A stretch of 64,000 bases of DNA from Sulfurirhabdus autotrophica. Lineage in GTDB: Bacteria; Pseudomonadota; Gammaproteobacteria; Burkholderiales; SMCO01. The DNA lies in contig NZ_SMCO01000001.1 in the NCBI RefSeq assembly GCF_004346685.1, positions 248,001-312,000 of the forward strand, given 5' to 3'. The notes beneath the pieces were generated by a model that saw only the letters and a list, made by a program, of their open reading frames with translations, had not been told where the DNA came from and made no database searches. Shown in pieces: positions 5,042 to 33,743 of the stretch. The translations under genes and the position numbers were made by a program. The stretch's first letter is position 1. Each line of letters starts with the position of its first letter.

Positions 5042-5578
5042 ATGAGCAGAAAATCACTTCCTTTATCCAAGGTATATGGCTTACTCGAACCCGGGCCGGT
5101 GGTTTTAGTCACTACTTTTCATCGTGGACGTTCAAATATCATGACCATGTCGTGGCACACCATGATGGAGTTTGAGCCACCGCTGGTAGGTTGTGTTATC
5201 AGCAACCGTAACTATTCATTCGGTTTGTTGAAAGCATCCAGGGAATGTGTCATTAACATTCCAACTGTAGAAATAGCTGAGAAAGTTGTAGGATGTGGCA
5301 ATACGTCCGGTGAAAATATAGATAAATTTAAGTTATTTAACCTCACACCAAAATCTGCTGCACATGTCGGTGCACCAATCATAATCGAATGTTATGCAAA
5401 TCTGGAATGCCGGGTAATAGATACTAAGATGGTTACAAAGTATTGCTTCTTTGTAGTTGAAGTCATCAAGGCCTGGATTGACCCCGCTGTAAAAAACCCG
5501 CATACGATTCATCACCTTGGAGACGGTAATTTCATGGTTGCCGGTGAAAAAATCAAGCTAAAGTCGAAAATGAAGTAG
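5042..5578 (+). CDS. Flavin reductase-like domain protein (FMN-binding)
   Basis: 178 residues of the flavin reductase/DIM6-NTAB split-barrel family, which binds FMN or FAD. Visible family features are PGPVVLVTT near residue 17, a TMSWHTMMEFEPPLVGCVIS segment (about 35-54) and NYSFGLLKASRECVINIP (about 57-74). Related proteins either reduce flavin with NAD(P)H or serve as flavoprotein oxidoreductases; substrate is not evident. No good ribosome-binding site precedes ATG 5042, so the start is tentative. It follows the globin by 133 bases on the same strand, so a shared role in NO or oxygen chemistry is possible but unproven. Confidence 0.75.
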   Translation: MSRKSLPLSKVYGLLEPGPVVLVTTFHRGRSNIMTMSWHTMMEFEPPLVGCVISNRNYSFGLLKASRECVINIPTVEIAEKVVGCGNTSGENIDKFKLFNLTPKSAAHVGAPIIIECYANLECRVIDTKMVTKYCFFVVEVIKAWIDPAVKNPHTIHHLGDGNFMVAGEKIKLKSKMK

Positions 5579-5913
5579 CGCCACGGCTAACTCTGATTGA
5601 TTAAAAAACCTGTTACGGCTTAATTTACCCCGCCTATTTACATCACAATCATCTCGTAACATATTGTAAGTTAAGTATTTAGTTTCCGATATGGGATATC
5701 TGATTCTTGACACATATATTTAAACTGCATACAATAATAACATTGTCATTTTTGGCATTTGGTGTGTTTGATATAGCGGTTGATGTTATGGGTTTTCTTA
5801 ATCTGTTTTGCTAAACAAAATAGTCGAATGGCCCGTGTTGCTCAAACGATGTTATTCAACAAATCGTATTATTAAAATCAATGATGCAGAAATATATATC
5901 ATAAGGAAAGTAA
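5579..5913. other. Intergenic region without a recognised gene
   Basis: 335 AT-rich bases. No reading frame of note and no strong hairpin were seen. AAGGAAAG at 5903-5910 provides the ribosome-binding site for the next gene. Confidence 0.5.
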
Positions 5914-6321
5914 ATGAACATCTCTAAAAAGGTCATGTTTGCTGCAATCGCCATAGCTGTGATGCTATCAGGCTGTGCAACACCACCTCCAAAAGAAGCA
6001 ATCAAAAAAACGTATGCTGTTCAGGGGCAAAAACTGGAACTTGGTGGCACATATCAACCCAAGTCAAAAGAATTGATTATTACAATCAATAACGAACCCA
6101 TTATGAAAGGGACCTTCCCACCCTTCACACCAACCATGAAATTAAATGGCAAATACAAGAATTTTCAAATTTCGGGTGATTGCTATTTTGGCTCTGTTTT
6201 GGGTTCCCAGAAAGGCTTGGTGGGTATCATTGCTGGCGCAGTTCAAAGTGGAAACAGCAAGACTTCTGATAAATGCGATATGTTGGTTGATTCAAAAGCT
6301 GCGGATTCTCTGTATTTCTAA
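5914..6321 (+). CDS. Putative lipoprotein of unknown function
   Basis: 135 residues. The N-terminus has a lipoprotein signal with lipobox LSGC (Cys at residue 21), so the mature protein should be lipid-anchored in the envelope. The rest is a small, probably beta-rich domain with YQPKSKELIITINNEPIM and a hydrophobic segment VGIIAGAVQS near residue 105. Two later cysteines (in GDCYFG and DKCDM) could form a disulfide. No family is recognised. A strong hairpin follows at 6332-6364. Confidence 0.7.
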   Translation: MNISKKVMFAAIAIAVMLSGCATPPPKEAIKKTYAVQGQKLELGGTYQPKSKELIITINNEPIMKGTFPPFTPTMKLNGKYKNFQISGDCYFGSVLGSQKGLVGIIAGAVQSGNSKTSDKCDMLVDSKAADSLYF

Positions 6322-32108: not shown

Positions 32109-32903
32109 TCAACTTGACCCCTGACTCCCCTGAGCTTGAAGAATAAGAGCGAGGAACAATAACTCTCGCGGGTTTAGATCGGAAACCACCCAATAGACCA
32201 TCCCACCCTCGGCCCAGTGCAACAACTGATAGCCTTGGCTCGACAATGTCTTCACTGCAATGTTTTGTTTGTTGGCGACAGGCCAGATATAAACATTAAT
32301 TAGATGCTGGCGATGACGATAAACCAGCGCCGCAACCGACCGATGATCGAGGTAGTCGAGTCTGCCGCCCACCAGCGGGAACCCTTGCGCGGTCAGATCA
32401 CTGACGGTTGGTGAAAAGTCTAGCTTGCCGTTAAACCAAGGCTTTACCGTATGATGATCAGAAGAAGTGACGTCAGCAATATGATTAACCATCAATGAAC
32501 GTACATGGTTAGAAACCACGTCTTCCGCGAGCAGGTCATTGGGGGAAGGTATGGCCAAATAGAAGCTGACACTCAATGTAAGGGCAACAACCGAGGTGAT
32601 CGCAGTGCCAAAACTAAACCAGTTGAATGGTCCTAACCATTTCAAGGCAGGCTTTCCCGACCGCCCAGAATGAGCGTTATCCAAAGGTAACGCAGCTCTG
32701 ATATGATTTTCAAGATGGTTAGGCGCTTTGAAATAAGTAGCGTGCTTTTTAAGTGCGCCGCGCAGAGCATTCTGGCTTGCTAATTCGTTTTGGCAAGACA
32801 GACAGCCTAGCACGTGATTATCGACCTCGATAGACTCCGACACACCCAGTTCCTGATCCACGTAGGCTGGCAATAGCGCCAAGATTTCTTTGCAATCCAT
32901 CAC
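32109..32903 (-). CDS. Membrane anti-sigma factor with zinc-finger domain
   Basis: 264 residues. The N-terminal anti-sigma domain has the zinc motif H-x3-C-x2-C (DNHVLGCLSCQNE, about residues 29-41). A single transmembrane helix (about 96-118) is followed by a periplasmic domain that ends GMVYWVVSDLNPRELLFLA. It should hold the partner sigma factor inactive at the membrane until an envelope or redox signal is sensed. Its start overlaps the sigma-factor stop by four bases. Confidence 0.9.
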   Translation of the reverse strand: MMDCKEILALLPAYVDQELGVSESIEVDNHVLGCLSCQNELASQNALRGALKKHATYFKAPNHLENHIRAALPLDNAHSGRSGKPALKWLGPFNWFSFGTAITSVVALTLSVSFYLAIPSPNDLLAEDVVSNHVRSLMVNHIADVTSSDHHTVKPWFNGKLDFSPTVSDLTAQGFPLVGGRLDYLDHRSVAALVYRHRQHLINVYIWPVANKQNIAVKTLSSQGYQLLHWAEGGMVYWVVSDLNPRELLFLALILQAQGSQGSS

Positions 32904-33460
32904 TTAACTCCTTCATTTATCCGCGCAAGATATTCCAGCAACATTTTGCGGCCACGCGCGAGACGCGACATCACCGTTCCGATGGGAATACCCGCAACAA
33001 TGGCAATTTCCTTGTAGGATAAATTTTCCAGTTCTCTCAATACTAATATCTCACGAAACTCCAAAGGCAATTGCTCCAGAGATTGGTTTATTTGCCGTTT
33101 ATCATCATTTCGCGCCAAAATTGCTTCGGGATTGTTGTCTGCCTGATTGATCAATGTGGCCGAACCCTCTGAATCAAGGCCGTGAACCTCTTCGTCGAAT
33201 GGCGTGTTCTTTACATGCTCGCGGTTTTGTTGCAACCAGGTGTAGGTGGTATTCCTGACGATAGCGAGCAGCCAGGCTCGCGCATCTTCCCCATGGCATC
33301 CATCGAAGAATTTGTAGGCGCGCAAATAAGCTTCCTGCACAATATCTTGTGCATCCTGGTCGCTGCGACTCAACCAGCGCGCCAGATTGTAAGCCATATT
33401 CAGATGCGGCAATACAATCTCTTCAAATCGCCGTGCTTTCATTGCTTCAGTGGCCGCCAT
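32900..33460 (-). CDS. ECF-family RNA polymerase sigma factor
   Basis: 186 residues of the RpoE-like ECF group: region 2 with LARWLSRSDQDAQDIVQEAYLRAYKFF (read in two parts, about 28-54) and region 4 with LPLEFREILVLRELENLSYKEIA and IPIGTVMSRLARGRK (about 130-178). Controls its own promoter and probably the divergent metallophosphoesterase operon, since both share a two-part motif. The start ATG is close to the -10-like element, so the leader is short. Confidence 0.92.
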   Translation of the reverse strand: MAATEAMKARRFEEIVLPHLNMAYNLARWLSRSDQDAQDIVQEAYLRAYKFFDGCHGEDARAWLLAIVRNTTYTWLQQNREHVKNTPFDEEVHGLDSEGSATLINQADNNPEAILARNDDKRQINQSLEQLPLEFREILVLRELENLSYKEIAIVAGIPIGTVMSRLARGRKMLLEYLARINEGVK

Positions 33461-33477
33461 TTATCATTATCTTCAAA

Positions 33478-33509
33478 GTGCAATACCAATCATTAAACCA
33501 TTTTATTCC
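33478..33509 (-). promoter_or_regulatory. ECF-type promoter of the sigma/anti-sigma operon
   Basis: Minus strand: GGAATAAA (33502-33509), 14 bases, GGTATTGCAC (33478-33487), 17 bases before the sigma start. The same two blocks with the same 14-base gap occur in the divergent promoter at 33668-33699. Confidence 0.7.
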
Positions 33510-33667
33510 ATAACCAGTGTTTTAAATCCCGATTCATGGTCATTGAATAGTCACAAAGCTTTCATTATCTCGATAATGACAACGCAAAAAATAACGACAC
33601 GCGTTTGCAAACACCTCAATCAAATCCAGCCAATTTATTTACGCAATAATACTTTTTCTAAATGAAG

Positions 33668-33699
33668 GGAATAAATAATCCACAGAAACGGTATTGCAC
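33668..33699 (+). promoter_or_regulatory. ECF-type promoter of the metallophosphoesterase operon
   Basis: GGAATAAA (33668-33675), 14 bases, GGTATTGCAC (33690-33699), 44 bases before ATG 33744. Identical in both blocks and in spacing to the promoter of the ECF sigma gene, while the 14-base spacers differ. This is the pattern expected of -35 and -10 elements for one sigma factor. Confidence 0.72.
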
Positions 33700-33743
33700 G
33701 TTACTACCCATTAATTTCTAGATAACCTAATTAGGAGCACAGC

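Follow-up and report, generated by a model that had tools for sequence, protein, structure and literature searches.

The window, as we call the whole 64,000-nucleotide stretch of the Sulfurirhabdus autotrophica genome analyzed here, raises the question of what is signified by two copies of a single two-part motif that lie between an ECF sigma factor gene and a divergently oriented metallophosphoesterase gene. The first-pass annotation had reported an identical motif before both genes, with the same N14 gap and different spacers, and a search of the window reproduced it exactly: GGAATAAA-N14-GGTATTGCAC occurs at 33509-33478 on the minus strand and at 33668-33699 on the plus strand, both gaps being 14 bases long. 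The spacers of the two copies differ and are unrelated, which argues against a recent duplication. We consider it very probable, judging from sequence comparisons, that the two sites are -35/-10 promoters of the adjacent ECF sigma factor, and that they belong to an autoregulated sigma/anti-sigma module driving an exported metallophosphoesterase and a cupredoxin (Table 1). What the sequences show directly is that the sites are paired and conserved, that their occurrence depends on gene order and on whether the sigma factor is present, and to which families the genes belong.

Table 1. Genes and predicted promoter elements of the divergent module, in window coordinates.
Feature	Position	Strand	Basis and remarks
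Anti-sigma factor	32109..32903	-	zf-HC2 (PF13490) N-terminal; probably a single membrane helix (by eye); C-terminal domain conserved
ECF sigma factor, 186 aa	32900..33460	-	PF04542 and PF08281 (sigma-70 regions 2 and 4)
-10 region GGTATTGCAC, sigma-gene promoter	33478..33487	-	Exact match; conserved core GGTAT
-35 element GGAATAAA, sigma-gene promoter	33502..33509	-	Exact match; GGAATAAA conserved here before the sigma gene in relatives
-35 element GGAATAAA, metallophosphoesterase promoter	33668..33675	+	Exact match
-10 region GGTATTGCAC, metallophosphoesterase promoter	33690..33699	+	Exact match; TGCAY extension kept in relatives
Ribosome binding site AGGAG, metallophosphoesterase gene	33733..33737	+	Sequence
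Metallophosphoesterase, 302 aa	33744..34652	+	Twin-arginine signal RRDFFKLAG (by eye); GEHD for GNHD
CuA-like cupredoxin, 124 aa	34657..35031	+	4 bases past the metallophosphoesterase stop; presumably same operon

The genome scan that had been proposed as a check of the motif gave a clear outcome. In the 3.86 Mb genome the exact pattern was found twice only, at the two divergent genes of the window, and the seven further matches all carried three mismatches, with four matches returned by the reversed control pattern; in shuffles of 64 kb the mean expectation at up to three mismatches was 0.08. Among the near-matches of the pattern and the profile elsewhere in the genome we found no further convincing target. 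Most of them were intragenic or low-scoring and were rejected, including two inside genes (L119, 17.3 bits; L132, 15.3 bits), and a site at 172013-172044 of contig C2 (L134, 6.7 bits), directly 5' of a SoxB-like (soxB) gene, was taken as probably a chance match. A slightly relaxed form of the pattern, searched across 399 genomes belonging to the order, gave six matches in four genomes, and none with the reversed control; all six fell within this module or its relatives.

Conservation was followed by footprinting in 84 loci, mostly from Betaproteobacteria (80 named loci that encode a metallophosphoesterase orthologue, and four from same-order genomes), and all four genes of the module were retained in most of them. 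Upstream of the sigma and metallophosphoesterase genes, matches to the window pattern were far above those in single shuffles of the same regions. The consensus of the relatives reads CGGGAATAAA-N13-CGGTAT before the sigma gene and CGGGAATAWW-N13-CGGTATTGCAY before the metallophosphoesterase gene. Since TGCAY is missing from the sigma-side consensus, the extension belongs to the metallophosphoesterase promoter, and its copy before the sigma gene of the window is not general. This refines the extent first given to the motif: the core is conserved at both genes, the -10 extension TGCAC only at the metallophosphoesterase gene, and the literal 18-base motif of the window is longer than the conserved core. 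A profile of the sites matched 173 times in the 84 loci against twice in shuffled copies, with 135 of the 173 matches upstream of a sigma or metallophosphoesterase gene; as the profile was scored on the very loci used to build it, this comparison does not count as an independent one, and the exact-pattern scan of the 399 genomes comes closer to independence. The counts of loci, too, overstate the number of separate events, as the loci are related by descent.

The sites also depend on gene order and on the sigma factor itself. A sigma promoter is expected only where the sigma gene heads its own transcript, and with a 12-bit threshold a site was present upstream in 67 of 67 such loci and in none of the nine in which the sigma gene shares its strand with the metallophosphoesterase and cupredoxin genes and lies downstream of them, a split that agrees with the expectation without exception (raising the threshold to 14 bits leaves two of the 67 narrowly below it). 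Likewise, if the sigma factor reads the metallophosphoesterase site, the site should track its presence. Among loci from genomes with the orthologous sigma factor, 70 of 78 had such a site upstream of the metallophosphoesterase operon, versus one of six from genomes without it (Fisher P = 0.0002). The one exception (L063) has strong sites, and its genome has only more distant ECF factors. Additionally, none of 17 distant metallophosphoesterase matches that lack the module had a site nearby. The predictions of an ECF promoter, of autoregulation and of one small regulon thus agree with all of our computational tests, namely geometry, conservation in the 84 relatives, gene order and sigma presence.

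Two readings would deny that the sites are promoters. The copies lie about 160 bases apart in an A+T-rich intergenic region of 283 bp, and one may ask whether they resemble each other by chance or through a functionless local duplication, a notion that we find hardly credible at all: in 2,000 dinucleotide-preserving shuffles of this region, in which non-overlapping copies on opposite strands were compared and overlapping copies excluded, a shared spaced word pair with the 18 matched bases seen here was never reached (the best score, 17 matched bases, was attained twice), and the match is conserved across the 84 relatives. The element might also be the operator of a DNA-binding transcription factor, for which two copies flanking a divergent intergenic region would be a common layout. 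This is highly improbable, given that the element is non-palindromic, that in dozens of loci its strand is constant and the start codon usually lies close by, that it has the geometry of an ECF promoter, and that among the families recurring across loci no regulator gene besides those of the sigma and anti-sigma factors stands beside it. The other recurrent "families" near the loci, beyond the four genes and DsrE, look mostly like antisense reading frames and were set aside. Sigma-70 type matches in the intergenic region were within about 1-2 standard deviations of shuffles.

Taken as ECF promoters, the two sites have the core geometry GGAAT-N18-GTAT, counted from GGAAT, and score 18.5 bits (sigma gene) and 27.0 bits (metallophosphoesterase gene) on the profile. 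The transcription start of the sigma gene is predicted at about 33474 on the minus strand, leaving a leader of some 14 bases to the ATG at 33460, and that of the metallophosphoesterase gene at about 33703 on the plus strand, a position occupied by a purine in 88% of the relatives. The sigma factor has regions 2 and 4 only and its gene adjoins that of the anti-sigma factor, as befits an ECF sigma/anti-sigma module, and the shared promoter motif upstream of both the sigma gene and a target gene is what an autoregulated one would be expected to show. The closest relatives of the proteins are in Sulfuriferula multivorans (75% identity for the sigma factor, and 64% each for the anti-sigma factor and the cupredoxin), which would make the host probably a member of the Betaproteobacteria in or close to Sulfuricellaceae, and a search of PDB sequences returned Mycobacterium tuberculosis SigH as the closest solved relative of the sigma factor, which shares with it the region-4 segment PIGTVMSRL-RGR.

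Promoters of the SigR/SigH kind have been described as GGAAT-N18-19-GTT, and Corynebacterium glutamicum SigH uses the -35 element GGAAT (PMC10012870, PMC9205884). The window promoters resemble those of this ECF12 group (Streptomyces SigR, M. tuberculosis and Corynebacterium SigH) in having a -35 GGAAT and N18 to a -10 element that starts with GT; they differ from it in that the -10 element is GTAT or GTCT, with A or C as the third base, rather than GTT. In sequence, the sigma factor scores 102.3 bits against a cut-off of 251.55 on the TIGR02947 model and falls outside that family. The anti-sigma factor has a zf-HC2 zinc finger and is weakly RsrA-like (33.7 on the RsrA model, cut-off 62.5), and it has in addition a probable membrane helix and an extra C-terminal domain. 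ECF26 promoters combine a -35 GGAATA with a -10 GT, and the RpoE1 promoter of Sinorhizobium meliloti, GGGAATAAATCCATAGCCCTCCGTGTCTT, can be written as GGAATAAA-N14-TGTCTT (PMC6180224). The window promoters carry both of these ECF26 elements and have the same geometry as the RpoE1 promoter. Among the ECF26 factors of S. meliloti (RpoE1, RpoE4, RpoE6) one also finds an anti-sigma factor with a membrane helix and a periplasmic domain, and RpoE6 has a divergent target gene as well; in contrast, the sulfite oxidase gene is absent from the window module, and RpoE6 and the window sigma factor match at 51 bits (136 bits for a Mesorhizobium relative). On these comparisons, we place the sigma factor in neither group. 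By far its best family is NF009185 (PRK12533), which covers nearly the whole protein at 237.8 bits, a near miss of the curated cut-off of 248 that leaves it just outside the family; in the literature, we found no description of a regulon for the members of NF009185.

In the relatives, similar sites are not confined to the two divergent promoters. They occur upstream of a cytochrome c gene that itself precedes the metallophosphoesterase gene, of DsrE-like genes (L037, L046), of CzcE-like genes (L063) and of a DUF305 gene (L100), and this set of targets suggests periplasmic redox or metal stress. Beside the module of Sulfuriferula multivorans (L037), a DsrE-like gene on the minus strand near 5361-5930 has the motif, and on its sequence is likely to be a third member of the regulon. 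In L063, three strong copies of the motif at 938, 1376 and 3424 (plus strand) each precede a small secreted protein, of which the one after 1376 was scanned and is CzcE, the other two resembling CzcE; the genome contains no close orthologue of the sigma factor.

The two proteins that the rightward promoter would deliver are both unusual. The metallophosphoesterase fits the calcineurin-like fold and the corresponding Pfam family, and of the metal ligands D, H, D, N, H, H, H it keeps all but the N: in 85 of 85 sequences, Glu replaces this Asn (GEHD for GNHD). Its nearest folds, Rv0805 and GpdQ, agree with it at the other metal-ligand positions, whereas their ligand is Asn and the window enzyme additionally has a twin-arginine export signal. 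The cupredoxin shares Cys-x3-Cys-x3-His-x2-Met (C106, C110, H114, M117) with the Thermus CuA domain and cytochrome c oxidase subunit II, from which it differs as a free-standing exported protein with Met (M71) in place of the first His, so that the CuA set of two Cys, two His and Met is incomplete. Across the family, the first His-ligand position is His in 42 and Met in 40 of 82 sequences. In all ten loci that contain an additional cytochrome c gene, the cupredoxin is of the His type. In the literature that we searched for ECF sigma factors together with metallophosphoesterases and cupredoxins, we did not find this module described.

The promoters being accepted, two further issues concern who reads them and what they are for. 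Two other sigma factors of the same genome, C17 and C7, also have the PIGTVMSRL segment of the window sigma factor. Moreover, a second divergent ECF pair (contig C17, 6312-6401; L130, L131), in which the sites separate a DsrE-family gene from the genes of the C17 sigma factor and its anti-sigma factor, repeats the layout of the window with GGAATAAA-N14-CGTCT on both strands, that is, with an identical -35 and a different -10. Cross-recognition is possible on account of this shared segment and this pair, cross-activation among ECF26 sigma factors has been published (PMC10880074, PMC6180224), and L063 has sites without the orthologous sigma factor. The C17 module is the main candidate for cross-talk. 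That C17 or C7 reads the window promoters, either alongside the neighboring sigma factor or in its place, within a wider network, nevertheless seems to us rather unlikely: the -10 is GGTAT in the window versus CGTCT at C17, the C17 sites score 7.6 and 10.1 bits versus 18.5 and 27.0, and the presence of the sites tracks that of the orthologous sigma factor. As to purpose, the enzyme might serve envelope-lipid recycling and not redox or copper stress, in the manner of UpsH of the Bacillus subtilis SigM regulon. UpsH is a metallophosphoesterase under ECF control that releases undecaprenyl phosphate, and its authors expect more such enzymes in envelope-stress regulons (PMC11898649). We regard such a role of the window enzyme as unlikely, as its partner is a CuA-like cupredoxin, the additional targets (cytochrome c, CzcE, DUF305, DsrE-like) point to redox or metal chemistry, and its fold is nearest to GpdQ and Rv0805.

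Our preferred reading, recognition by the neighboring sigma factor, gives rise to the following scenario. An envelope signal would cause the membrane anti-sigma factor to free the sigma factor, which, together with RNA polymerase, would bind GGAAT-N18-GTAT directly. Leftward initiation near 33474 would then yield more sigma and anti-sigma factor, a positive autoregulation limited by its own inhibitor; since the two genes overlap at the stop codon of sigma, induction would raise activator and inhibitor alike. Rightward initiation near 33703 would yield the Tat-exported metallophosphoesterase and the CuA-like cupredoxin, and the output of the regulon would serve protection or repair in the periplasm, probably by way of redox or copper chemistry. 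We further propose, tentatively and as a possibility that we would not yet call probable, that an ECF-controlled periplasmic defense or repair pathway is widespread in Betaproteobacteria, in which the Glu-site metallophosphoesterase and the mini CuA protein, joined in some species by the cytochrome c, act on a new substrate or redox stress. A motif noticed by eye has become a tested and conserved promoter signature of a widespread sigma group for which we found no description in the literature, and the module offers a candidate regulon in concrete form. Dozens of related bacteria share the arrangement, which looks like a conserved self-amplifying stress switch, and the function of the two odd exported proteins can be approached through the inducers of these promoters.

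A few observations concern the regulators alone. In the zinc finger of the anti-sigma factor (HxxxCxxC), both cysteines are present in about half of 75 sequences; conservation is much higher in the C-terminal part (HVRSLM...VKPWF), a hint that this part does the sensing. The C17 anti-sigma factor ends in a weak DsrE-like domain that scores below the Pfam cut-off.
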